This document shows, in pieces, positions 1,842 to 17,240 of a stretch of DNA of 64,000 nt. The translations under genes were made by a program, and so were the position numbers. The notes under the pieces were generated by a model. That model was not told the origin of the DNA and did not search any database. It worked only from the letters and a program-made list of their open reading frames with translations. Position 1 is the first letter of the stretch. Each line of letters begins with the position of its first letter. The DNA comes from Myxococcales bacterium (GTDB taxonomy: Bacteria; Myxococcota_A; UBA9160; SMWR01). Where the stretch lies: contig JADFQO010000008.1 of NCBI GenBank assembly GCA_022561775.1, forward strand, positions 1 to 64,000, written 5' to 3'.

Positions 1842-2909
1842 CTAGATTGGCCCGCGGAAGTACTCCTCGATGATGCGTTCGAAGGCCCGCGCTCCGGCTT
1901 CGAGCTCCTGCCGTGTGATGTACTCGTCCGGCGTGTGCGAGCGTCTCGACTCGCCGGGGCCGATCTTGACGCTTGGAATTCCGTCTAGAAAAACCATGTC
2001 GCTCATCGCCGCACTGCCGGCCGGTTGTGTGTCGGGCAGGGCGCGCAGCACCGCTTGCACGATGCGCTCGTCTTGGCCGGTGGCGACGGGCACGAGGCGA
2101 TCGCTGTGGACGTGCAGCGCGCTTTCGAGGCGGTGGTCGAGCCGCTCGAATAACTCGCGATGCGATTCGGCCGGCGTGGTTCGGATATCGAGATAGAACT
2201 CGCACGCGTCCGGGATGACGTTGCGGGCCGTGCCGCCGTTGATTTGCGTTACGTGCGCGTGGCAGCGGCCGAGCAGCGGATGCTCGGGTCCCCAGTCGAA
2301 GTCCTCGAGCTCTTGCAGGTCGCGTGCGGCGGTCTGAATCGCGTTGTCGGCGGACCCGGGCGGCGTGTTCGCGGGGTGCCCGCTGCGCCCCGTCGCGACG
2401 CCGCGCAGGATGAGCAGTCCGCGCTGCGCGGTCATCGGCACGATCCCGGTCGGCTCGCCGACGATGGCGGCGTCGAGCGGGCGGAGCTCTTCAAGCAGAG
2501 TGCCGAGGCCCTGCCCGCTGATCTCCTCTTCGGCGGTGAGCGCGAGAACGACGGTCCCGCCGAGCCGCTCACCGGCGTCGAGGCGTGCTTTCGTATTCAG
2601 CAGTGCCGCGATCATGGAGGTGACGCAGCCCTTCGCGTCGTTGGCGCCAAGACCCGTGAGACGGTCGCCGTCTCGTCGCAGCGAAAAGGGGTCCGCTGTC
2701 CAGCCGTTGGCCGGCGGCACGGTATCGAGGTGCGAGTTGAGCAGGAGTCGCGGGCGTTGCGCGTCGCCGACCTCGCACCAGATGTTGTTGTCCCGGCGAC
2801 GCACGCGCAGGCCGCGCTGCGCGAGATCGGCCGCGACGGTCTCCGCCAGCGCACCTTCCTCGCGCGAGATGCTGCGAATCGCGACGTAGCGGGCCAGTCG
2901 TTCGATCAT
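1842..2909 (-). CDS. M20-family deacylase (ArgE/DapE-like; probable N-acyl-citrulline or N-acyl-ornithine deacylase)
   Basis: NSHLDTVPP, GANDAKG, TAEEE, GEPT motifs; last gene of the arg operon; ATGA overlap with argB. Confidence 0.85.
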   Translation of the reverse strand: MIERLARYVAIRSISREEGALAETVAADLAQRGLRVRRRDNNIWCEVGDAQRPRLLLNSHLDTVPPANGWTADPFSLRRDGDRLTGLGANDAKGCVTSMIAALLNTKARLDAGERLGGTVVLALTAEEEISGQGLGTLLEELRPLDAAIVGEPTGIVPMTAQRGLLILRGVATGRSGHPANTPPGSADNAIQTAARDLQELEDFDWGPEHPLLGRCHAHVTQINGGTARNVIPDACEFYLDIRTTPAESHRELFERLDHRLESALHVHSDRLVPVATGQDERIVQAVLRALPDTQPAGSAAMSDMVFLDGIPSVKIGPGESRRSHTPDEYITRQELEAGARAFERIIEEYFRGPI

Positions 2910-3841
2910 GGGTCCGCGGCGCTCGGCGCCACTTCGTTGTTGGCTTCGCGCGATTTGACCAGCAGCGTCCCGCAGCCCTCGTTGGTGAACACTTCGCCTA
3001 ACAACGTGTCCTGCGCCGTCCCGTTGATGATGTGGACGCGCGGCACGCCGCCTTCGAGGGCGCTAATGCAAGCTGCGAGCTTGGGCAACATGCCGTCGCC
3101 GATCGCGCCGGAGTCGATCAACTCGCGCAACTCGGTGAGGTCCAAATACGATTGCAGCGTGGACGGGTCGCGCACGTCGCGCATGACGCCGTCCACGTTG
3201 CTGACCAGGAAATACTTGGCGGCCTCGATCGCGACCGCGATGCGGGCCGCGACGGTGTCGGCGTTCACGTTGTAGATCTGCCCGGCCGAATCGGCTGCGA
3301 GTGAGCAGACGACCGGGACGAACCCGCCATCGAGCTGCTGGTGCAGGACGCGCGTGTTGACGTCGTCGATGTCGCCGACGAAGCCGAAATCGACGTCGCG
3401 CGATTCGCCGGTGCGCGGGTCGGACGCGCTCTGCACCGGGCGTTTGGTCACCGCGAGCAGCTCGCCGTCCAAGCCGCTCAACCCGACACCAGGCACGTGC
3501 GCTTTGCGAAACGCCGCCAGCAGGTTGGTGTTGACCGTGCCGGCGAAGGCCATCTGCACGACCTCGAGCGTGTCGGCGTCGGTGATGCGCCGGCCGGCGA
3601 AGAGCTTCGGCTTGACGCCCAAACGCTCGCCGAGTGCGTTCGCCTGCTCGCCGCCGCCGTGGACGACGATCAGCTTGACGCCGAGCTGGTAGAGCAGAGC
3701 CAGTTGTTCGACGAGATGGTCGAGCGTGCGGCCGGGCTCGCAGAGCGCGCCGCCGAGCTTGATGACGAAGATGCGGCCCTTGAAGGCGCGGATGTAGGGG
3801 ATCGCGGTCCGCAGGGCCTCGAGCTGGTGTTGGCTGTGCAT
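2906..3841 (-). CDS. argB: N-acetylglutamate kinase family (or N-succinylglutamate kinase)
   Basis: VIKLGGAL, IVVHGGGEQ, YNVNADTVAARIA, GDGMLPKL; start taken at MHSQHQLEAL. Confidence 0.9.
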   Translation of the reverse strand: MHSQHQLEALRTAIPYIRAFKGRIFVIKLGGALCEPGRTLDHLVEQLALLYQLGVKLIVVHGGGEQANALGERLGVKPKLFAGRRITDADTLEVVQMAFAGTVNTNLLAAFRKAHVPGVGLSGLDGELLAVTKRPVQSASDPRTGESRDVDFGFVGDIDDVNTRVLHQQLDGGFVPVVCSLAADSAGQIYNVNADTVAARIAVAIEAAKYFLVSNVDGVMRDVRDPSTLQSYLDLTELRELIDSGAIGDGMLPKLAACISALEGGVPRVHIINGTAQDTLLGEVFTNEGCGTLLVKSREANNEVAPSAADP

Positions 3842-3849
3842 GTTGACTC

Positions 3850-4857
3850 TCAGTGCGGCTGACGCAGCAGGTGGCACAGGATCGCCACCTGCGTCCACAT
3901 CCGATTCTCCGCCTGATCGACCACGACGCAACGCGGGTCGTCGAGGGCGGCGTCCGTCATGACCACGTTGCGCCGCACCGGCAGGCAGTGCATGAGCAGC
4001 GCGCCCGGCTTCAAGTGATCGGCGTCCACGATCCAGTCGGCGTGTTCCTGGAAACCGCTGCGCTGCGCGTCGTCGTCGCCGTAATGCGCCGCGGCCCCCC
4101 AACTCTTCACGTAGACCACGTCGGCGTCGCGGCGGGCCTCGCGCCACTTGTGGGTCTTGTCGAGAGAAGAACCCGCGGCGGCGCACCACGTCGCGGCGCG
4201 GTCGAGCAGCGCGGCGTTCAACTCGTATCCCGGCGGATGTGCGATTGTAACCTTCATGCCGGCGGCGGCGGCGGCGAGCAGGGCCGAGTGCGGCACCGCC
4301 ATCGGCAGCGCTTTGACGTGCGGCGCCCAGGTCAGCACGAAACGCTTGCCTGGTAGTTCATTCAGCTTCTCGTCGATGGTCATCCAGTCGGCCAGACCCT
4401 GGCAAGGGTGCTCCATCGCCGACTCCATATTGATCACCGGCACCGTCGCGTGCTGTGCAAAGCCGCGCAGGACCCGGTCGGCGGCGTCCTCGCCGGCGTC
4501 GCGCAGCTTCGCGAACGTGCGCACCGCCAGCAGATCGCCGTAGCGGCAGAGCACCGGGGCGGCTTCGCGGATGTGCTCCGAGCACGCGCCGTCCATTACG
4601 ACGCCGTCGCGGTGCTCGAGCGGCCAGGTGTCGCCGCCGACATTGAGGCAGATGGCGTGCCCGCCGAAGCGCAACATCGCGGCCTCGAACGACGTGCGCG
4701 TCCTCAGCGACGGATTGAAGAAAAGCATGGTGAGGATCTTGCCGCGCAGGGCGGCGGATGCTTCGGCGTCGTCGCCGGCCTTGATGCGGCGGGCCAGTGC
4801 GACGAGCTGCGCGAGCTCGCGCGGCTCATACTCCAGCAGGTTCAGCCAGTGTCGCAT
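3850..4857 (-). CDS. argF': N-acetylornithine/N-succinylornithine carbamoyltransferase (ArgF')
   Basis: FFNPSLRTRTSFE, EHPCQGLADW, VLTWAPHVKALPMAVPHSA, VVYVKSWGA, HCLPVRRNV; matches AOTCase/SOTCase rather than standard OTCase. Confidence 0.88.
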   Translation of the reverse strand: MRHWLNLLEYEPRELAQLVALARRIKAGDDAEASAALRGKILTMLFFNPSLRTRTSFEAAMLRFGGHAICLNVGGDTWPLEHRDGVVMDGACSEHIREAAPVLCRYGDLLAVRTFAKLRDAGEDAADRVLRGFAQHATVPVINMESAMEHPCQGLADWMTIDEKLNELPGKRFVLTWAPHVKALPMAVPHSALLAAAAAGMKVTIAHPPGYELNAALLDRAATWCAAAGSSLDKTHKWREARRDADVVYVKSWGAAAHYGDDDAQRSGFQEHADWIVDADHLKPGALLMHCLPVRRNVVMTDAALDDPRCVVVDQAENRMWTQVAILCHLLRQPH

Positions 4858-6001
4858 CCGTGGTTTCTCCCAGGTCGTGCAGTGCGGCGGCCAGCTCGTC
4901 GACGGCTTCGGCCGGTGTGTTGATCGGCGGCAACAACCGCAGCACGGACGGGTCGCCGCTCGTGCCGGTGATGAACCCTCGTTTCAAGAGCTGCTGTTGG
5001 ACGGGCCTCGCGGTTGTGGCGACCCGGAGCCCGATCAGGCAACCACGGCCGGTTACCTCTCGCACGGGTCCGACGACGAGCTTCTTCCGCGTGCTCTCGC
5101 CGAAGCGCGCCGCTTGTTGGAGCAGTCCGTCTTTCGCGATGGCTTCGAGGACCGCGAGCAGCGCTGCGCACGGCACCGGGCCGCCGCCGAACGTCGTGCC
5201 GAGGTCGCCGATCGCGACGTTGTCGGCGACGGTGTCGTTCATGAGGACCGCGCCCATCGGGATGCCGTTGGCGATTCCCTTGGCGAGCGTGAGCATGTCG
5301 GGCAGGACGCCGTGTTCGCCGGCTGCGAAGGGCCGTCCGAGGCGCCCCATGCCGGTCTGGATCTCGTCGTAGATGAGTCGCGCGCCGCTTTCGTCGCACC
5401 TGCGCCGCAACGCCTGGAGAAAATCGGCCCGCAGCTCGACGACGCCGGCCATACTCTGGATCGGCTCGATGATGACGGCGGCGATCGAATCGTCGATCCC
5501 CGACAGCGCGTCGATGTCGTTGGGGGGCAGGTGGAGCGCCGGACAGAGCAGATCACGGAACGGCTCTCGGAGCTTCTCGTTCGCCGTTGCCGAGAGCGCC
5601 AAGAGTGTTCGTCCGTGGAAGCCCCCGTGTAGCGCCGCGATTCGCCGCCGGCCGGTCTGCTGAATCGCGAGCTTGAGCGCGTTCTCGTTGGCTTCCGCGC
5701 CGCTGTTGCAGAAGAAGACGCGGTCCAGGCCGTCGGGCGCGAAGCCGCACAACCGCTCGGCGGCGCGTTCGCGAATCGCCAACGGGGCAGCGTTGGAATA
5801 GAACGTCAGACGCTCACATTGCTCGCGGACGGCTTGCGCGACACCCGGGTGCGCGTGGCCGAGCAGCGCGACGGCGTGCCCGCCGTAGAGGTCCCAATAC
5901 TCATTTCCATTCTCATCGCGGACGCGCGCCCCGCACCCGTCGACGAGCGTGAATGGGAATTGTGCGTAGGTTTCAACGAGTGCCGGCATCCTTCGCTTCA
6001 C
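4826..6001 (-). CDS. argD: Acetylornithine aminotransferase family
   Basis: DLYGGHAVALLGHAHP, FCNSGAEANENALKLA, IYDEIQTGMGRLG. Confidence 0.9.
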   Translation of the reverse strand: MKRRMPALVETYAQFPFTLVDGCGARVRDENGNEYWDLYGGHAVALLGHAHPGVAQAVREQCERLTFYSNAAPLAIRERAAERLCGFAPDGLDRVFFCNSGAEANENALKLAIQQTGRRRIAALHGGFHGRTLLALSATANEKLREPFRDLLCPALHLPPNDIDALSGIDDSIAAVIIEPIQSMAGVVELRADFLQALRRRCDESGARLIYDEIQTGMGRLGRPFAAGEHGVLPDMLTLAKGIANGIPMGAVLMNDTVADNVAIGDLGTTFGGGPVPCAALLAVLEAIAKDGLLQQAARFGESTRKKLVVGPVREVTGRGCLIGLRVATTARPVQQQLLKRGFITGTSGDPSVLRLLPPINTPAEAVDELAAALHDLGETTDATLAEPAGV

Positions 6002-6064: not shown

Positions 6065-7129
6065 TCACAGCGGCCTCAACGAAGGCGTCCAGAGCCCGGT
6101 CGGCTCGGGCAGGCCGCACATCAGGTTCATGTTCTGGATTGCCGTGCCCGCCATGCCCTTGATCAGGTTGTCGAGCGCGGCCATGACGACCACTTGCCGC
6201 TCGCGGCAGGCGACCGACACGTCGCAGAAGTTCGACCCCACGACGTCTTGTAGCGTCGGCGAGCCCGTCAGCACACGCACGAACGGGCTGTCGGCATAAA
6301 AGCTCTCGTATCGTCGCCGCAACGCATCGGCGTCGAGCGTTTCGGCGAGCGTGGCGTGCAGCGTGACGAAGATGCCGCGTGCCGCGTCCATGCTGTGGGC
6401 CACGAAACTGGTCTGAATCCGCCGCCCGTGCGGGTCGTCCAGCGCTTGCAGGATTTCGGGCTCGTGCTGATGGGCGAGTGGCTTATACGCGCGAAAGTCG
6501 GCGTGCCGCGTGGGGTGGTGCGTGGTCTCCTTCAGAGCGCGGCCCGATCCGGACGAGCCGGTCTTTGCGTCGATCGCGATCGGGCCGGTAAACTCCCTCG
6601 TCACCAGAGGCGCCGCCGCGAGAATCGAGGCCGTCGCCAGACAGCCGGGATTCGCGACGCAACGCGCGTCGCGGACCAGCTCGCGAAACAGCTCCGGCAT
6701 CCCGTACACGAACGACGCCCGCCGGTTCGGTAGGACGGGGCTTTCGCGGTAGAAGCGCTGGTGGATCGCCGCGTCGCGCAGCCGCAGGTCGCCCGACAGA
6801 TCGACGATCTTCACGCGCTCGCCGCGGTCTTTCGGCTCGAGCTCGTTGAGCAGACGGTCGAGCGCGGCCCCGCTCGCCCCGTGCGGCAGCGTGGAAAACA
6901 CGATCGCGTGCTCACCGGCGAGAAGCCGATCGAAATCGATGCTCGCGGTGGTCTTCAGATCCCAAAAGCCGCGCAAGTGCGGATGGATCGCGTCCACTCG
7001 TTCGCCGGCCCGCGACGTCGAAGTGACGGATACCACCTCGACTGCCGGATGCTGCGTGAACAGCCGCAGCAGCTCGGCGGCTCCGTATCCGCTCGCGCCC
7101 AGGATCGCGACGTGGATCGAGCGGTTCAT
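6065..7129 (-). CDS. argC: N-acetyl-gamma-glutamyl-phosphate reductase
   Basis: MNRSIHVAILGASGYGAAELLRLFTQHP, VANPGCLATASI; ATGA overlap with the upstream gene. Confidence 0.92.
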   Translation of the reverse strand: MNRSIHVAILGASGYGAAELLRLFTQHPAVEVVSVTSTSRAGERVDAIHPHLRGFWDLKTTASIDFDRLLAGEHAIVFSTLPHGASGAALDRLLNELEPKDRGERVKIVDLSGDLRLRDAAIHQRFYRESPVLPNRRASFVYGMPELFRELVRDARCVANPGCLATASILAAAPLVTREFTGPIAIDAKTGSSGSGRALKETTHHPTRHADFRAYKPLAHQHEPEILQALDDPHGRRIQTSFVAHSMDAARGIFVTLHATLAETLDADALRRRYESFYADSPFVRVLTGSPTLQDVVGSNFCDVSVACRERQVVVMAALDNLIKGMAGTAIQNMNLMCGLPEPTGLWTPSLRPL

Positions 7130-8187
7130 GCACCGATCTCCACGCCGCGTTTCTTCAGGCAGCCCGCGATGAAGTCGCCCAGCTCGCGGGCGTGCGTGCG
7201 GGCGTTGATCGCTTCGAGCCCGAGTTGTTGCTTGATGTAGCTCGTGCCGACGGCGTTGTCGGTCGTCGGCCCGCTGACGACGTCGATCGGCAGGTCGAAG
7301 CGCTCCTTCATCACGCGCTGGGCACCCCACGACCCGACCGGGTCGTTCGCGCACAGGACGATCGCGGCGGCCTGCTTCTTCAACTCGGCGTCAGAGAGAA
7401 TCTGGGCGACGCCATACTCGCCGAGGATGCCGTCCCCGAGCTCGGCCACGACGACTTGGGCGCCGCGCTCTACGAGGTGCGCGAACAACTGCCGCGCGAC
7501 GCGGACGGCGTTGTCCGGCGTTGTCGTCACGACTCCGGCGTCGCTAAACGAGACGGCGACCTGGGCGCCGTGGTCGCTCATCTGGAGTGTATCGCGGCGC
7601 AGCGCGACGCCGGTCAGCTTGCAGGCCCCGACCGTGAGGCCGCGCTGCGTGAGTTGACGAATCAACCGGCAGGCGGCGAGCGTCTTGCCGCTGTTCATGC
7701 ACGTGCCGGCGACGAAGACGACGGGGACCGGCGTCGCGTCGCGTCTGCCGTCGCCGATGGCGTTCATGCCGATGTGCGCCGGCACGCCGTCGCGGCTTTC
7801 GAACTCGGGAAAGACGAGCGCCGCGCCGAGCAGCTCGACGTCGAACGGCCGGCCGACGTCGGGGTTTTGCGAGGTACACTTGCCGATCACGCCGCCGAGG
7901 TTCAGGAGTTGCAGCGTGTCGCCGGTGCCGAGCGACTCGGGCAGGAATCCGGAATAGCCGTGCAGTGCGTTTCGCTGGCCGAGCACGCCGGCGATCACGT
8001 CGCCGTCGTGCAGCGCGACCATTCGGCCGTGCAGGTCCTCGAGCTGGTTGTAGGCCGACTTCTCGCCTCGGATGCGGCCCGCAACGATGTAGCCTTCGCG
8101 CGCGACGATGCGCTCGCTGACGCGCAGGTCGCGCCGCAGCGGCACGTTGGCGGTCGCCGAAGCGATCTTGTCAAGCCAGAGCCGCAT
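7126..8187 (-). CDS. Uncharacterised P-loop NTPase embedded in the arginine operon
   Basis: Walker-A-like VVFVAGTCMNSGKTLAACRLIRQL and MobB/CobB-like VVVAELGDGI after an about 150-aa N-terminal domain; overlaps argG and argC. Confidence 0.75.
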   Translation of the reverse strand: MRLWLDKIASATANVPLRRDLRVSERIVAREGYIVAGRIRGEKSAYNQLEDLHGRMVALHDGDVIAGVLGQRNALHGYSGFLPESLGTGDTLQLLNLGGVIGKCTSQNPDVGRPFDVELLGAALVFPEFESRDGVPAHIGMNAIGDGRRDATPVPVVFVAGTCMNSGKTLAACRLIRQLTQRGLTVGACKLTGVALRRDTLQMSDHGAQVAVSFSDAGVVTTTPDNAVRVARQLFAHLVERGAQVVVAELGDGILGEYGVAQILSDAELKKQAAAIVLCANDPVGSWGAQRVMKERFDLPIDVVSGPTTDNAVGTSYIKQQLGLEAINARTHARELGDFIAGCLKKRGVEIGA

Positions 8188-9394
8188 AGGCGGTGTTCCC
8201 TTTGGTCGCGACGCGTTCGATCAGACAATCCTGCAAGCCGTAGAGTTTCGCGAAGGCCGCAGCCTCGGCACCGGTCCAGAGCGTACTTGATTCGCCGTAG
8301 AGCGCCTGCCCGGCGTTCATGAGCGAAAAGGGGCTGCGCACCCCCTGGACGATCGCCTGGCCGCCGAAGAGCCGCACCTTCACGCGGCCGGTGACGCGGC
8401 GCTGCGAGGATTCGAGAAAGGCCTCGATGTCGCGCATGAGCGGGTCGAAGAAGCGGGCTTCGTGCAGGAACGAGCCGTACAGGTCGCCGAGCGTGCGCTT
8501 CCACATCAATTGCTGCCGCGAGAGCACGAGCTTTTCGAGCTCGCGGTGGGCGCCGATCAGCACGGTGGCGGCGGGGGCCTCGAACGCGACGCGGCCCTTG
8601 ATGCCCAGGATCGTGTCGCCCAGATGCATTCCGCGGCCCACGCCGTGCCGGCCGGCCCGCTCGTTCAGCATCTCGATCGAACGCACGGGCGGGATCTCTT
8701 CCGCGTCGAGCCCGACCGGCACGCCTTGCTCGAATTCGATCATGACGTCCTCGGGCTCGGCAGGCCGCTCGCCGGGCGGCGGCGTGAGCACGTAGGCCTC
8801 ATCGGGCAGCACGCCGTCGCTGCGATGCGTCTCGGCCCCGCCGATGGTCGTGCCCCACAAGCCCTGATTGATCGAGTAGGTTGCCGTCTTGGCCGGGACC
8901 GCGACGCCGTGCTCGGCCAGAAACGCGACTTCCTGCGCGCGGGTCAGGGCTTGGTCGCGGATGGGCGTGAGGATTCGCAGCTCGGGCGCGAAAACACGGA
9001 ACGCAACGTCAAAGCGAATCTGGTCGTTGCCGGCCCCGGTCGATCCGTGACACAGGGCCTCGGCGCCGATCTCGAGCGCGTGCAGCGCGCAGCGCTTGGC
9101 TTGTGCGACGCGCTCGGCGGACACGCACAGCGGGTAACTCTCGCCGCGCAGCGCATTGGCGAAGATGAGATATCGCAGGTATTCGTCGAAGAGTTCGTCG
9201 CGGGCGTCGATCGTGAGGTGGTCCGCGACGCCGAGGCTGCGGGCCTGACGCTCGATCTCCGCGAGTTGGTCCGGCGTGAATCCGCCGGTGTTGACGGTGA
9301 CGGTGCAGACGTCGTAGTCCTGCTCGCGCAGGTGGACGGCGCAGTAGGTCGTATCGAGCCCGCCTGAAAACGCCAGGACGACTTTCGGTTTCAT
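8171..9394 (-). CDS. argG: Argininosuccinate synthase
   Basis: KVVLAFSGGLDTTYC, CHGSTGAGNDQIRF, YSINQGLWG. Confidence 0.95.
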   Translation of the reverse strand: MKPKVVLAFSGGLDTTYCAVHLREQDYDVCTVTVNTGGFTPDQLAEIERQARSLGVADHLTIDARDELFDEYLRYLIFANALRGESYPLCVSAERVAQAKRCALHALEIGAEALCHGSTGAGNDQIRFDVAFRVFAPELRILTPIRDQALTRAQEVAFLAEHGVAVPAKTATYSINQGLWGTTIGGAETHRSDGVLPDEAYVLTPPPGERPAEPEDVMIEFEQGVPVGLDAEEIPPVRSIEMLNERAGRHGVGRGMHLGDTILGIKGRVAFEAPAATVLIGAHRELEKLVLSRQQLMWKRTLGDLYGSFLHEARFFDPLMRDIEAFLESSQRRVTGRVKVRLFGGQAIVQGVRSPFSLMNAGQALYGESSTLWTGAEAAAFAKLYGLQDCLIERVATKGNTAYAALA

Positions 9395-9449: not shown

Positions 9450-9899
9450 TCACCCGGAACGGTGCCGGCCGAGCAACAATGCCATCACGCGTCCCTGGCA
9501 GCTTCGGCTGCGGACGGCCAGGAAGATCGTATCGTCGCCGGCGATCGTGCCCGCGATGTCGGCGTTGGGCTCGCTTTCGAGCTCGAACGCGACGGTGTTG
9601 GCCGCGCCGGAGCGGGTTCGGATGATAATCAGGTTCGCCCCGACGGGCTCAACGCCGGTGACTAAATCAGCGTGCCACTCGGCGTCCCCGGTCGGCGGCG
9701 AGCCGGCCAGGCGTTCGGCCGGGACGTAGCGGCCGTTGGCTTTCAGGAGTCCGATTTCGCGCACGTCGCGACTAATACTCGCCTGAGTCACCGAAAAACC
9801 GGCTTTCCGCATCAGCTCGACCATCTCGTTCTGACTGGTTACGGACCGGCCGCGAACCAGTTTCAACAGAGCTTTTTGTCGGCGTTGTTTGTCGCGCAC
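9450..9899 (-). CDS. argR: Arginine repressor
   Basis: VTQASISRDVREIGLLKANGRYV DNA-binding motif and ArgR-like C-terminal domain; first gene of the operon. Confidence 0.92.
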   Translation of the reverse strand: MRDKQRRQKALLKLVRGRSVTSQNEMVELMRKAGFSVTQASISRDVREIGLLKANGRYVPAERLAGSPPTGDAEWHADLVTGVEPVGANLIIIRTRSGAANTVAFELESEPNADIAGTIAGDDTIFLAVRSRSCQGRVMALLLGRHRSG

Positions 9900-9908
9900 G
9901 CGAGAGCC

Positions 9909-9949
9909 TTAATGAATAAATCATCAATATCTGTATTATTATTCATCTA
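9909..9949. promoter_or_regulatory. Putative paired ARG boxes upstream of argR
   Basis: ttaatgaataaatcatcaat and tgtattattattcatcta are AT-rich half-palindromes resembling ArgR sites in an otherwise GC-rich region, 10-50 bp upstream of argR. Confidence 0.65.
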
Positions 9950-10159
9950 TCGGCGCCTGTCAAGGGGGCATTTAAGAGAAAGGCATCACCCACAGGATTT
10001 CAAGTTTTGCTTGGACGGGTGATTGTCGTTCATCGTCGTTGCGAACGCAGTTGAGGAATCTTTCTTCGCCCTGGGCAAAATGCTTCGCTCCGCTCAGCCT
10101 GACGGTGCGCCTTTCACGCCCCTGGAAGGGGCGGGCCACCGGCACTCTCACGATGCAGA

Positions 10160-13100
10160 TGAGGTGCATCTGCGCGAGCAGCGCTGCCCCGTCCGTTTCA
10201 GCCAGAGCCTTCTTCAATGCCGGCATGCGTTTGCCGACGCGAGGTCCGAGCGCGCGAAAATTGGGCGTGACGTTGTAGGTAACGTAGTCGTCCGCGTTGG
10301 GAACGAAGTGCACTTCCCGAACGTTGAGTTCATCGCGGATCAGATCGAGGTGATCGCTCAGCGCGGGCTCGAGATCCGACTCCGCGAGCACCAGTTCGGC
10401 CGCCGCGAGGGGTTGTCGAACCCGGAGCTTCTGGGCGGTGCGCACCTGGAGGCCGAGAGAGACCAGATCGCGAACAGCGCCCATCGCGCGGGAGAGCGGG
10501 CGATCGATCGCCTCGCTGTCGGGTTCCGGATAGTCGCAGAGGTGAACGCTCTCCGCTTCGGAATCCGGAAAAGGTCGGCGCACGAGGTTCTGCCACATCT
10601 CCTCGGTCGCGTAGGGCAAGAACGGAGCGAGCAGCTTGGCGAGCGCAACCAGGCACTCGTAGAGCGTCCAATGTACATCGAGCTTGTCGGCATCCAGACC
10701 GGAGGCCCAGAACCGGCTGCGGCAACGCCGCACATACCAGTTGGAGAGTGCGTCGACGAATCCGGTGAGCGCGACCGTCGCATCGTAGACGCGAAACTCG
10801 TCCATCTTCTCGATCACCTCGGAGTTGGTCAGCGCGAGTTCCGAGAGAATCCAGCGGTCGATCAACGCGCGCTCGCGCGGCGATCGGCGGCCGGCCGCGC
10901 AAACCTCGCTCGATGGATCGAATCCGTCGATGTCCGCGTAGATGGTGAAGAACGCGTAGACGTTCCGCAGCTTCAGCGGAAGCTCGCGTTGCTGGGCGCG
11001 CACGCCGCCGAGCGAATGGCGCGTGGGATTCCAGGGCGGATTCGACGCGTAGAAGAACCAGCGGAAGGCATCCGCTCCGGGCGCCGATGAACTCGGATCC
11101 TCGATCCAGAGTTTGTTGACCGCGGGCAGGCGCGGGACTTCGCGGGGCATGATCTCATGGGCTGCGAATCCGGATTCCACTCCAAGCGCGGACCGCTCTG
11201 CTTCACCGAGTGCGATGACGCGCCGAGGCATCCTTGCCGGCCGCAGCGTGAGATCGAGAGCCGCTTCCGGCGCGTCGGCGCGACAGGCGCGAACCGACGA
11301 CGACTCTCCGCGCAGGTCGAGGCCCTCGTAGTCCTCCCGCGCGATCAAAGCGGTCGCGCGCTCCAAGGGTTCGTCGGGATCGACCACCGCGAACTCCAGT
11401 CGAACGCGATCCAGGATGACCTCGGGCGGCGTGTAGTTGCCCTTGCTCTTCGATTCCTTCTTGCCCTCGCGGTCCGCGACGTGCCCGAGCACCACACAGG
11501 TCCGATAGGGGCGCGGAAGCGGTCGCTCCGGAAAGAGCAGCGTCGAAATCCAGATCAGCGAATTGAACCAGCCGCGGGTCTGGTCGATTGCCTCGGAGAT
11601 GAAGTCAGCTGGGAAGTTCGCCTCGAATTCCTCCACGCCGCGCTGGGGGTAGCCCCACTGCGCGAACGGCATGGATCCGGAGTCGAACCAGGCGTCGATG
11701 ACCTCCGGTACGCGGCGGTAGACGCCCGCCTCGCCGGGCTTCGTCCAGGTCACGGCGTCGATCCAGGGCTTGTGGACGCGAAGGTGCGGCGACAGATCGG
11801 GATCCTTCGCGCGCGCCGCCTCGAAAGCCTCGAAGGCCGCGGGATTGTGCCCGAGAATTTCCTCGACTGAAGCCGGCGCATCGAGTGCTCCCGTCTCGTC
11901 GTTGATCCAGATGTTGAGCGGTGTTCCCCAGAAGCGCTCCCGCGACAACGCCCAGTCGACGTTGTTGCGCAGAAAGTCTCCAAAGCGCCCATCTCGAATC
12001 GTCTCGGGCAACCAATTGACCTTTGCGTTGTTGGCGAGAACCTCTTCGATGTGATCCGAGGTGCGGATGTACCAGGCCGGTCTCGCGTATTGGATCAGCG
12101 GATCCTCGTCAGACCGCACGCAGAACGGGTACTCGTGGCGGATCTGCTCAGCGTGCCAGAGGAGGCCGCGCTCTTTCAGCTCGCGGCTGAGATCGCGGTC
12201 GCAGTCCTTCACCCAGCGGCCCGCGTAGGTGTCCGGTGCGATCTGTGGGTCGAAGCTCCCGTCCGGTCGAACCGCACACAGCAGCGGCAGCTCGGGATTG
12301 TTTCGCTGCTCGCTGCGCAGGAGCTCGAAGTCGATCTCACCGAACGCGGGCGAGATGTGGACGACGCCAGTTCCGGCATCGAGTCCCACGAAGTCCGCGG
12401 CGACGACGCGCCAGAAGTCGAGCGTCGGCTGGTCGCGCTCGAACCAATCGAACGGTGGGACGTATCGCCGGCCCACGAGTTCTTCGCCGCGAAGTGTTCG
12501 CTCGACGGCGAGATCGCCGCTTGTCTTCTCTCGCAAGGTGGGCAGGAGTTCCTCCGCGACGATCAACCGCCGGTCGCCGTCGACGACCACCGCGTAATCG
12601 ACACCCGCCTTCACGGCCACCAGAGAGTTGGACGGCAGCGTCCAGGGCGTCGTCGTCCAGACCAGCAGCGACGTCTGCGGGTCGTCCCGCAGCGGAAAGC
12701 GCACGAAGACCGAGGGATCGTCAACGGTCCTGTAACCCTCGCCGACTTCGGCTGCCGACAGAACGGTTCCGCCCTGCGCCCACCACCAGACCACCTTGTA
12801 ACCCTGGTAGAGCAGATCCTTCTTGAACAACTCGGACAGCGCCCACCAAACGCTCTCGACATAACTCTGGTGGTAGGTCACGTAGGCGTTTTCGACGTCG
12901 AGCCAGAAGGCGAGCTTGTCGGTGATCTGTGTCCACTCTTCTGTGTATAAAAAGACATTGTCGAGGCAGCGGCGGATGAAGGGTTCGACGCCGTGGGCGA
13001 CAATCGCCTCCTTGCCGGAGATGCGCAGTTCTTTTTCGACTTCGATTTCGACTGGCAGGCCGTGAGTATCCCAACCCGCTCGGCGAGGAACGTCGAATCC

Positions 13101-13346
13101 CCGCATGGCCTTATAGCGGGGAAAAACGTCCTTCATCACGCGGGTCAAGACGTGGCCGTTATGGGGCAAACCGTTCGCGGTCGGTGGCCCCTCGTAGAAC
13201 ACGAAGCGGGGCCCGCCGCGGCGATGCACGAGCGACCTTCCTACGATGTCTCGCTGCTGCCAGAACTCGCGCACGCGGGCTTCCGCTGCGGGAAAATCGG
13301 CGACCGGGGCCACTCTTTCGAATCGGGGCGAGGACATCGGGCGCAT
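10160..13346 (-). CDS. ileS: Isoleucyl-tRNA synthetase, C-terminal end apparently lost at a contig join
   Basis: YEGPPTANGLPHNGHVLTRVMKD, DTHGLPVE, KESKSKGN; homology-like sequence stops after LKKALAETDGAALLAQM; the ORF continues to 9972 in non-IleS sequence. Confidence 0.9.
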
Positions 13347-13408
13347 AGGCTACCATCCAGGCTTGATTTCGCAGGAGATCCCGCCTGACCGACTACTTCA
13401 ACACGGGG

Positions 13409-15127
13409 ATGCGGCTCTACCTCGATCACCTCGTTGACTGGAAGAGGCTGCTCGAGATTCGAAGCGGCGGAGCTGTCGATGTAAACGTCGAGGTCGGCGC
13501 TTATCGGACGATCCTCGAGACTGCCGCCGCGCTGGCTGCCAGCTTCGAATCCGAAGCCCGCAAGAACTGGGCGGCCGAGGCCGAACTGACGCCCGACGGC
13601 GGCGCTCAGTCGCCTCCCCACATCCGCCAGGCCTACGATCAGCTCCGCGAAGCCGGGCTCGTCTCGCTGACGGTCGGCGAGCAGTACGGCGGCTACGGGC
13701 TGCCCGCGCTGCTCAACGGCATCTTTCTCGAAATGATTTCGCGCGCGGACCCGAGCTTGATGATGGTGCTCGGGCTCCAGACCGGCGCCGCGAGCGACAT
13801 CGAGGAGTACGGCAGCGACGAAGTCAAGGGCGCGTTCTTGCCGCGCTTCACCTCGGGCGAGGTCCAGGGCTGCATGGATCTCACCGAACCCCAGGCCGGA
13901 AGCGACCTCGGGGGGATCGTGACGCGAGCCACCGTTTTGCCGGACGGCCGGGTTCAGGTCGACGGCCAGAAGATCTACATTTCGAACGGCGGTGCCGAAG
14001 TCCACCTGGTACTCGCGCGGGACGACGACAAATTCGAGCAGTCGCGTGGAACGACCCAGGGACTCTCGCTCGTGCTGGTGCCGCGCCACCTCGAAGACGG
14101 ATCCCGCAATGGCGTGCGGGTGACGCGACTCGAGAAGAAGATGGGCATCCACGGCTCCGCCACCTGCGAGGTCGTCTTCGAGAGCGCGATTGGTCACACC
14201 CTCGGGGCCGCCGGAGAGGGCTTTCGGGCCATGCTCGATCTGATGAACGTCGCCCGCCTCGGGGTGGCCTCCCAGGCCCTCGGCCTCTGCGAAGCCGCCC
14301 TCCACGACGCCGTCGCGTACGCGCACGAGCGTAAACAGTTCGGCAAGGCAATCGCCGAGCAACCGATGGTGATGGCGATGCTCGCGAACATGACGGTCGA
14401 CACCGAAGCCGTGCGCGCCCTGCTCTACCGAACCTATCGACTGCTCGATCTGGACCGGGCCCGAAAAGCCGCGCTGGCCGGCGGAAACCTGCCCGACGCA
14501 GAGGCCTCCGCGATTCGCGCGGACCTCGAGCGCGACACCGCACGCGTTCGGCTGCTGACGCCCCTTTGCAAGTACTTCGCGACGGAAACCTGCGACAATA
14601 TTACCCGCGACGCGATGCAGGTTTTTGGCGGCATCGGATTTACCATGGATGCGGATGTCGCGAAGCTTCACGCGGACAGCCTGATCATGACCGTCTACGA
14701 GGGAACGAGCGAGATCCAGGCGTCGTTCGCACTGCGCGAGATCGGCAAGGGCGGCCTCGCGGTAGTCTTCAAGGAAATCCGATCAGAACTGGCTGCAATG
14801 GCCGATGACCCGCTGCGCGCAGATCTCGCCAAACGCGTCGAAGGAATGGCCGAACGCGTTGAGGAATCGATGGGCGTGATGTTCTCGGATATATCCTACG
14901 CGCTGCTGCGCGCGAAGCTACTCACCGAGATGGTGATCGACGTGATCGCGAGCTGCGAACTGCTCGAGCAGGTTGTGGCGGACCGCGACAGACTCGACAT
15001 CGCCAAGTCCTTCATCGCGCGCCACGCCATCAAGGCCGATTACTTGAATCGGCGGATCGCGGAAAACGCCGAAGGCCTGCTCGAACGCAATGCGCGCCTG
15101 GTCGCACGGGTGACGAGCCCCGCCTGA
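13409..15127 (+). CDS. Acyl-CoA dehydrogenase family
   Basis: GCMDLTEPQAGSDLG, YAHERKQFGKAIAEQP, QVFGGIGFTMD. Confidence 0.92.
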   Translation: MRLYLDHLVDWKRLLEIRSGGAVDVNVEVGAYRTILETAAALAASFESEARKNWAAEAELTPDGGAQSPPHIRQAYDQLREAGLVSLTVGEQYGGYGLPALLNGIFLEMISRADPSLMMVLGLQTGAASDIEEYGSDEVKGAFLPRFTSGEVQGCMDLTEPQAGSDLGGIVTRATVLPDGRVQVDGQKIYISNGGAEVHLVLARDDDKFEQSRGTTQGLSLVLVPRHLEDGSRNGVRVTRLEKKMGIHGSATCEVVFESAIGHTLGAAGEGFRAMLDLMNVARLGVASQALGLCEAALHDAVAYAHERKQFGKAIAEQPMVMAMLANMTVDTEAVRALLYRTYRLLDLDRARKAALAGGNLPDAEASAIRADLERDTARVRLLTPLCKYFATETCDNITRDAMQVFGGIGFTMDADVAKLHADSLIMTVYEGTSEIQASFALREIGKGGLAVVFKEIRSELAAMADDPLRADLAKRVEGMAERVEESMGVMFSDISYALLRAKLLTEMVIDVIASCELLEQVVADRDRLDIAKSFIARHAIKADYLNRRIAENAEGLLERNARLVARVTSPA

Positions 15128-15157
15128 ATCATGACATTCGAACGGTCGCGCTGAATC

Positions 15158-15916
15158 TTGGAGATCCTCGATCTCGGTATTCTCTGCACCGCAGGCCTGC
15201 TGACCGCTGCGCTCTCGGCGGTTGTCGGGATGGCCGGCGGCATCACGCTGCTCTCCGTGATGCTGCTCCTCTTCGAACCGCTCGTCGCGATCCCGATCCA
15301 CGGAGTCGTACAGCTCGTCTCCAACAGCTCGCGCACCTTCATCCAGCGCAAACACGTCGACTGGGCGATCCTCTGGCGCTACTCAGCGATGCTGGTGCCA
15401 ATGGGCTTCGTGGGTCTAGAGGTCGCGCAGTCGCTGCCAGCGACCGTGACGCGCGCGTTGATCGGAGCCTTCGTGTTGATCGCCACCTGGAAGCCGGGCT
15501 GGTTGCTGATCGGCACCCACCCCGAGCGCGCCGACACCCACCGCCGGTTTTTCTTGTTGGGAACCGTCGCCGGCGTGCTGAACATGACGATTGGCGCGGT
15601 GGGACCGCTGATCGCGCCATTTTTCTTGAGGATCGGGCTCACCCGCCAAGCGCTGATCGGAACCAAGGCCGCCTGCCAGGCGGTCGGTCACCTGGCAAAG
15701 ATCACGATCTTCGGGATTGCGGGCTTCGTGTTCGCCGACTACGCGATCCCGCTCGCGCTGCTCTCCCTGTCCGTGATCGCGGGCACCTGGATCGGCAGCC
15801 AGCTACTCGAACGCGTGAGCGAACTCTGGTTCAAGCGGCTGTACCGGGGCGTACTCACGCTGATCGCGCTCCGCCTCGTCATCTGGGAGGGGATGGCGTG
15901 GCTCGGTGTGCGCTGA
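15158..15916 (+). CDS. TauE/SafE family membrane protein
   Basis: Polytopic protein with GMAGGITLLSVMLL and GTVAGVLNMTIGAVGPLIAPFFLR. Confidence 0.8.
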   Translation: MEILDLGILCTAGLLTAALSAVVGMAGGITLLSVMLLLFEPLVAIPIHGVVQLVSNSSRTFIQRKHVDWAILWRYSAMLVPMGFVGLEVAQSLPATVTRALIGAFVLIATWKPGWLLIGTHPERADTHRRFFLLGTVAGVLNMTIGAVGPLIAPFFLRIGLTRQALIGTKAACQAVGHLAKITIFGIAGFVFADYAIPLALLSLSVIAGTWIGSQLLERVSELWFKRLYRGVLTLIALRLVIWEGMAWLGVR

Positions 15917-15935
15917 TCGAAAGCGAATCCCACTC

Positions 15936-17042
15936 TCAGTAGAGTAGGACGCTTCGGATCACCTCGCCCTTGTGCATCTTTTCGAACGCGTTGTTGATCT
16001 CTTCGAGCGGCATCGTCGCGTTGACCATCTCGTCGAGTTTGATGCGACCCGACATGTAGCGATCGACGAACTGGGGCAGCTGGGTGCGGCCGCGCACGCC
16101 GCCAAATGCCGACCCGCGCCAGTTTCGGCCGGTCACCAGCAGGAACGGACGCGCGTGGATCTTCTGGCCCGCGCCCGCGACGCCGATGATGATCGCCTCT
16201 CCCCAACCGCGATGCGTGCACGCCAGCGCCTGGGCCATCAGATCGACGTTGCCCACGCATTCGAACGAATAATCGACACCGCCGTCGGTCATGTCGACGA
16301 TGGCTGCGGTGAGTTCGTCGACTTCCCTGGGATTCACGAAGTCCGTCGCGCCGAATTGGCCGGCCAGCGCGAACTTGTCGGGGTTCGTGTCGACGCCGAT
16401 GATGCGGTCGGCGCCCGCGATGACTGCGCCCTGGATCACCGACAGTCCGACTCCGCCGAGGCCGAATACGGCGACCGTCGAACCCGGTTTCACCTTCGCG
16501 GTGTAGAGCGCCGCGCCGATCCCAGTGGTCACCGCGCAACCGAAGAGGCAGACCTTGTCGAGCGGTGCGTCGGTGCGGATCTTCGCGAGCGCGATCTCCG
16601 GAACGACTGTGTATTCGGCAAACGTCGAGGTGCCCATGAAGTGGTGGAGCATCTTGCCCTTGTGGGAAAGCCGACTGGTACCATCGGGCATCAGGCCGCG
16701 ACCCTGGGTCTCGCGCAACTTGAAGCAGAGGTTGGTGCGGCCAGAAAGGCAGAACTTACACTCGCGGCACTCGGGGATGTAGAGCGGAATCACGTGGTCG
16801 CCGACCGCCACAGAGCTCACGCCGGGTCCGATTTCTTCCACGACACCCGCGCCTTCGTGGCCGAGCACGACGGGAAACAGGCCTTCGGGGTCTTCGCCGC
16901 TCATCGTGAACGCGTCGGTGTGGCAGACACCCGACGCCGCGAGGCGCACCAGGCATTCGCCCTGCTTCGGCCCGTCCAGATCGATCTCTTCCACTTCCAG
17001 AGGGGCCTTGGGCTCCCAGCAGATCGCAGCCTTCATCTTCAT
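15936..17042 (-). CDS. Class III alcohol dehydrogenase / S-(hydroxymethyl)glutathione dehydrogenase family
   Basis: [49 protein letters not shown]. Confidence 0.9.
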
Positions 17043-17154
17043 CGTGGCGTCTCCCCGTCATCGTGCGCGTCGGCGGTGTGGCGTGTCAGTATAGCTGCCC
17101 AAAACAAGCGGGGGCGAAAACCAAGCCAGGACACCAACAAGCGAGAACGCAAGC

Positions 17155-17222
17155 GGGGACGTTGTTGAATAGTTGAGCTCCGGGATCGCAGCCCGGGAGT
17201 TCAACTATTCAACAACGTCCCC
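17155..17222. repeat. Long hairpin: 22-bp perfect stem (ggggacgttgttgaatagttga) extended by an imperfect CG-rich stem
   Basis: Read directly; lies between the 3' end of the autotransporter gene and the 5' end of the ADH gene. Confidence 0.9.
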
Positions 17223-17240
17223 GGCTCCGCCGTCCCTGGC

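Follow-up and report, generated by a model that had tools for sequence, protein, structure and literature searches.

Which gene product carries out the first step of arginine synthesis at this locus? In the lineages that carry a gene here called X, which lies inside an arg operon, that step has no assigned gene among the families tested. The window, meaning the whole stretch of 64,000 nucleotides that was analyzed, comes from the MAG of a Myxococcales bacterium. An earlier reading of the sequence only had suggested that X could supply or regulate the missing acylation step. This suggestion gained support from the linkage of X to arg genes and from the mutual exclusion of ArgJ and X, and of the two roles, supply agrees better with the evidence than regulation. 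We conclude that X probably opens a succinyl-type route to arginine by making N-succinylglutamate; its activity, its donor and the roles of its domains are inferred. The cluster is on the minus strand in the order argR - argG - X - argC - argD - argF' - argB - argE, with the following features.

9450..9899, minus strand: argR, arginine repressor (PF01316, PF02863).
8171..9394, minus strand: argG, argininosuccinate synthase (Pfam and TIGR00032).
7126..8187, minus strand: X, a 353-aa P-loop protein and candidate N-succinylglutamate synthase (ATG-start ORF).
7738..8187, minus strand: β-rich N-terminal domain of X, residues 1-150 (AlphaFold pLDDT 90.5; no PDB structural match).
7681..7707, minus strand: Walker A sequence GTCMNSGKT of X, residues 161-169 (Thr of GKT conserved in almost all 70 family members).
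6065..7129, minus strand: argC, N-acylglutamyl-phosphate reductase (TIGR01850 above cut-off).
4826..6001, minus strand: argD, acylornithine transaminase (PF00202; TIGR00707 family).
3850..4857, minus strand: argF', knotted carbamoyltransferase with succinylornithine-type residues (NF003384 above cut-off; alignment to 3l05).
2906..3814, start codon approximate, minus strand: argB, N-acylglutamate kinase without a fused acetyltransferase domain (TIGR00761 above cut-off).
1842..2909, minus strand: argE/dapE-type M20 deacylase, candidate desuccinylase (PF01546, PF07687).

X shares 17 nt with argG and an ATGA with argC, and a Shine-Dalgarno-like AAAGGGAA is found upstream of its start. The sequence-only reading had described a 353-aa ORF with these overlaps between argG and argC, and both the ORF and the Pfam and NCBIfam assignments of its neighbors confirmed it. 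A plus-strand reading of 7126-8187 was rejected since its residues are unrelated to X. The same reading had singled out GTCMNSGKT as Walker A-like and about 150 N-terminal residues as a novel domain. The former was located at residues 161-169, with a GK that is invariant in the family, and the latter gave a confident AlphaFold model by itself with no structural match in the PDB.

The X family was defined by homology and by a maximum-likelihood tree. Orthologs with 37-72% identity occur in Planctomycetota, Myxococcota, Acidobacteriota (Holophagaceae), Gemmatimonadota, and gammaproteobacteria (Natronospiraceae). At E<=1e-10 they were detected in 76/379 genomes of the MAG's phylum, some of these matches being distant homologs; another 27 contigs with orthologs are labeled Planctomycetota, Holophagaceae, Natronospiraceae, Gemmatimonadetes, and others. 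The motif G-[TS]-x-M-x-x-G-K-T is present in nearly all of 70 family members, and >50 residues are >=97% conserved across the 60 arg-type sequences. Judged from these alignments, conservation of the family is far beyond chance. The 60 arg-type X form one side of a branch with support 94/86, and the other side holds ten sequences with ~30% identity whose contexts lie outside arg operons. Both sides have in common Asp63, Arg72, the Walker A GKT, Lys190-x-Thr-Gly, Asp199, Asp205, Phe214, Asp216 and Glu249. Residues specific to the arg type include Ser10, Tyr46, Asn96, and the region Gly-Pro-x-Thr-Asp-Asn. No description of the family was found in the open-licence literature, a scope that leaves out subscription papers and most preprints, and viral contigs and a viral fold library contained nothing relevant to X.

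We treated the homologs of ~30% identity that neighbor M20 peptidase or hydrolase genes (L020-L024, L077-L081) as a distinct part of the tree and kept them apart from the arg-type sequences. Three of them (L020, L023, L077) directly adjoin an M20 peptidase gene outside any arg operon, and a gene for a TRAP-type solute-binding protein (DctP) is near one of these (L077). The distant homolog and the M20 peptidase are possibly an acylation/deacylation pair for another substrate. A second group (L021, L022, L024, L079, L081) occurs in other contexts, and in two cases (L022, L024) a frame that by eye resembles an α/β-hydrolase lies downstream.

X had no match to a Pfam or NCBIfam model above cut-off. 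The best subthreshold models were MobB (PF03205, 21.6 vs 26.6 bits) and DUF1611 (PF07755, 21.0 bits vs a cut-off of 25, residues 144-188 only), both limited to the P-loop region. Membership in either family was rejected, as was membership in BioD (TIGR00347, 15.6 vs 83.3 bits); a second MobB model, TIGR00176, gave 20.3 vs 76.2 bits. The known enzymes for the acylation step were ruled out as well. Neither X nor its orthologs matched the ArgJ model PF01960, and neither matched PF00696 or a GNAT model as ArgA would, X having a P-loop fold instead. ArgA, ArgJ, and the NAGS-kinase fusion share with X only the functional slot proposed for it, and X is without their ArgJ, amino acid kinase or GNAT domains. 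The PDB sequence search with X alone gave P-loop-level matches only, and a profile of 24 orthologs found only dethiobiotin synthetase over 33 residues (E 0.15). The sequence-only reading would have been refuted by clear orthology to a characterized non-arginine enzyme, and none was found in the Pfam, NCBIfam and PDB searches. On the profile evidence, X defines an unnamed protein family of its own.

The AlphaFold model of full-length X had a pLDDT of 92.7 and a pTM of 0.91. Modelled alone, the N-terminal domain was all β, and its best PDB structural hit had an E of 1.3. In the structure search the C-terminal P-loop domain matched dethiobiotin synthetase, HypB, SRP GTPases, and the DUF1611 protein 2obn, with a TM-score to dethiobiotin synthetase of up to 0.60 by target length. 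BioD resembles X in its P-loop fold class, its Walker A GKT and a Lys that aligns with Lys190 of X; it differs in lacking an extra N-terminal domain and in its operon, and X scores under the BioD cut-off.

The DUF1611/DgcN proteins (PF07755, NF041892; PDB 7xrj, 2obn, 2g0t) resemble X in having two domains, similar length and a C-terminal P-loop. DgcN, a D-glutamate N-acetyltransferase, is EC 2.3.1.312 (PMC11747546). It acylates glutamate, as is proposed for X, but in D-glutamate catabolism rather than arginine synthesis. NCBIfam has a DgcN model, NF041892, which gave no match at E<=0.1 for X or for two orthologs tested (L102, L127). L130, a genuine DUF1611 protein encoded by the window's MAG, matched it at 1.2e-45, under the model's own cut-off, and our placement of DgcN in DUF1611 presumably holds, chiefly on the strength of this match. 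In its locus (L130, 1069-3208) the gene adjoins an L-Ala-D/L-Glu epimerase-like gene, an arrangement that resembles a dgcN-dgcA pair. PF07755 did give matches at E<=1 to 20/24 X orthologs (best E 2.4e-4), and no sequence or profile similarity between X and DUF1611 was detected beyond the P-loop. X has no DUF1611-type N-terminal domain; its all-β domain remained unmatched up to E 1.3, though the library contains DUF1611 structures. The residue after the Walker A Lys also differs, being Thr in nearly all X members and Arg or Met in the four DUF1611 proteins aligned.

Linkage of X to arginine genes was examined at the arg-type loci. Arg genes are adjacent at 62/62 arg-type X loci. argG is directly upstream in 49/62 and argC directly downstream in 52/62, with a median gap of -4 nt on each side, so that the genes mostly overlap. 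At three loci of the MAG's phylum (L065-L067) argF' is the only arg gene nearby, and at one of them (L067) it is a fragment. Distances among X sequences track the distances among six Arg proteins (r 0.74-0.88). The most complete cluster, L117 from Holophagaceae, reads argD-argF'-argB-argE-argH-argG-X-argC; each post-acylation step has its gene, and X is the sole extra one. Had X not been conserved in other arg operons, the sequence-only reading would have failed, and its occurrence in arg operons of five phyla excludes this.

Genomic co-occurrence was examined in a 58-genome sample of the MAG's phylum, which contained 16 X-positive and 41 X-negative genomes, the window's MAG itself being excluded. 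argF' was above cut-off in 14/16 X-positive vs 7/41 X-negative genomes, the association that the sequence-only reading had put forward as a check. One X-positive genome (G067, locus L091) has X with argC, argD, argB, argR and argG, an ordinary ornithine carbamoyltransferase elsewhere, and no argF'. Therefore X is not confined strictly to the N-succinylcitrulline route, and in this genome it might also act in one that uses free ornithine.

The same sample was used to look for the known glutamate-acylating enzymes. ArgJ was found in 0/16 X-positive vs 28/41 X-negative genomes (Fisher p = 1.7e-6, uncorrected for phylogeny). It was also absent in 16/16 X-positive genomes of other lineages, for a total of 0/32. 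Full-length ArgA was absent in 16/16 X-positive genomes of the phylum sample and in 15/16 of the other lineages, including both Natronospira-type gammaproteobacteria. The exception, G379, has a full ArgA at a contig start, possibly through contamination. The ArgB proteins of X operons are without a fused acetyltransferase because, at 178-316 aa, they are too short for one. In X-negative relatives with argF' the argB frames are 453-517 aa, which is consistent with the fused synthase-kinase type, a statement that rests on frame length with no domain confirmation. In H1_PLA3, whose record is a complete chromosome (CP054190.1), TIGR01890, a profile that includes the GNAT domain, found ArgB only. 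By this comparison X is conserved in arginine operons lacking other testable enzymes for the acylation step, one criterion for an N-acylglutamate synthase. An unlinked GNAT of the Bacteroidetes type (BT3761/Cabys_1732) is not excluded in X-positive genomes, and many of the genomes compared are MAGs.

The arg segment of the window itself has an uncertain host. Origin changes sharply in the region 9900-17100: DNA of the MAG's genus, 86-93% identical, begins only at position 10,167 of the window, at the 3' end of ileS. The C-terminal end encoded by ileS (9972-13346) is foreign, and a second copy, 94% identical, is on contig C45. The argG, argC, argF', argB and argE products of the window are closest to those of planctomycetes (57-73%), the window X falls inside a planctomycete clade with support 100/99, and X is absent in the three genomes of the same genus. 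Because the genus DNA begins at 10,167, the affinity to its left is planctomycete, and the same-genus genomes are without X, the arg segment appears to be planctomycete-like DNA joined at ~10,167, whether in assembly or through transfer. Elsewhere in the MAG, contig C19 carries ArgJ, and C42 carries a second argB and carbamoyltransferase. This ArgJ is a caveat on the exclusion of ArgJ and X, although the arg segment appears foreign to the genus. The conclusions on X rest on many other genomes, including the complete-chromosome record CP054190.1. Elsewhere in the window, the frame at 36-1667 combines a GntP-permease fragment with the C-terminal part of a GFO/IDH/MocA oxidoreductase; its first ~230 residues are glycosyltransferase-like by eye with no Pfam match, and it looks like a chimeric join. 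A ~70-base repeat with an inverted copy (17134-17240) has many matches in the same-genus genome G002 and is apparently a dispersed repeat.

The nature of the acyl group was inferred from the partner enzyme ArgF'. Three positions separate N-acetyl- from N-succinylornithine carbamoyltransferase, and the succinyl-type key at Xanthomonas positions 92, 185 and 302 is A/S/P/V/Q, P, and V/I/E, respectively (PMC4581275). The window ArgF' meets this key with Ser, Pro and Val. Its best PDB match, 3l05, has an aligned Ser at position 92, where another Xanthomonas chain has Glu. Of 50 X-linked ArgF' proteins, all 50 have A/S/V/P/Q where Xanthomonas has Glu92, 46 have Pro in place of Asn185, and 48 have V/I/E in place of Lys302. 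In two X-negative relatives ArgF' has Glu, Asn and Lys and is of the acetyl type. Because the X-linked ArgF' proteins carry succinyl-type residues, the acyl group that X is predicted to add is most likely succinyl.

BT3761, which we take to be a GNAT family protein, offers a parallel; like X it is presumed to act at this step of a succinyl-type pathway and its gene is numbered beside argG, but its fold is GNAT vs the P-loop of X. In Bacteroidetes, whose arginine synthesis proceeds via succinylated intermediates, BT3761 is the gene presumed to encode N-succinylglutamate synthase, and its number directly follows that of argG, BT3760 (PMC7311316).

In the proposed pathway X would acylate the α-amino group of L-glutamate, most likely with succinyl, to give N-succinylglutamate, which would pass to arginine via ArgB, ArgC, ArgD, ArgF', the M20 deacylase, ArgG and ArgH. 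We infer that the C-terminal P-loop domain binds a high-energy donor and that the N-terminal β domain would complete the substrate site. Two chemistries can be envisaged. ATP may phosphorylate succinate, with the glutamate amine attacking the acyl phosphate in the C-N bond formation of dethiobiotin synthetase and CobB. Alternatively succinyl-CoA may be the donor, as acetyl-CoA presumably is for the DUF1611 enzyme DgcN, which by analogy is a glutamate-acylating P-loop precedent in the same broad class. The Walker A Thr normally holds Mg2+. Since X keeps this Thr, as does dethiobiotin synthetase, while the four DUF1611 proteins have Arg or Met, we lean slightly toward ATP-Mg chemistry, though the alignment leaves the choice undecided. 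That X founds a new family of N-acylglutamate synthases, neither GNAT nor ArgJ, through ATP-dependent ligation of succinate and glutamate is a tentative proposal that we hold with less than even confidence.

Other roles for X were weighed against the same evidence. X might be a P-loop regulator or assembly factor of arginine enzymes, with an unlinked, unrecognized GNAT acylating glutamate. Regulators and metal/cofactor chaperones are common among SIMIBI P-loop proteins, the structural matches of X include HypB, MeaB-type and SRP GTPases, and unlinked GNATs of the Bacteroidetes type lie outside the reach of our enzyme comparison. We nevertheless consider this unlikely. X persists in operons of five phyla alongside loss of both ArgJ and ArgA, every other gene of the complete cluster L117 has a step assigned to it, the known regulator, ArgR, is already there, and the GNAT-containing profile found ArgB only in H1_PLA3.

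It is a little harder to argue that X acylates glutamate with acetyl and feeds an acetyl-type pathway, although acetyl-CoA is the donor for most known acylglutamate synthases and N-acetyl-D-glutamate is the product of DgcN. G067, in which X is paired with an ordinary carbamoyltransferase, leaves the acyl group unreadable from ArgF'. Position 92 of the partner ArgF' is of the succinyl type in 50/50, and where acetyl-type ArgF' does occur, in two X-negative relatives, the longer argB frames are consistent with a fused synthase-kinase; an acetyl donor thus seems improbable. Finally, the resemblance of the C-terminal domain to dethiobiotin synthetase, which includes the aligned Lys190 region, could point to carbamate/phosphate chemistry elsewhere in the pathway, e.g., in carbamoyl phosphate supply or deacylation. 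This we regard as very improbable, as the operon already has an M20 enzyme for deacylation, carbamoyl phosphate normally comes from CarAB, which serves pyrimidines too, and the missing ArgJ and ArgA would be left unexplained.

If X is the N-succinylglutamate synthase proposed here, then X alone fills the gap at the first step in Planctomycetota, Holophagaceae, many Myxococcota and some gammaproteobacteria, and the succinyl-type arginine pathway extends well beyond Bacteroidetes. A P-loop fold with an unmatched N-terminal domain would join the unrelated enzymes known for the acylation step, and automated calls of arginine auxotrophy in these lineages would need correction. If the ATP-ligation reading is also true, arginine synthesis in parts of five phyla would begin with a chemistry new to this step.
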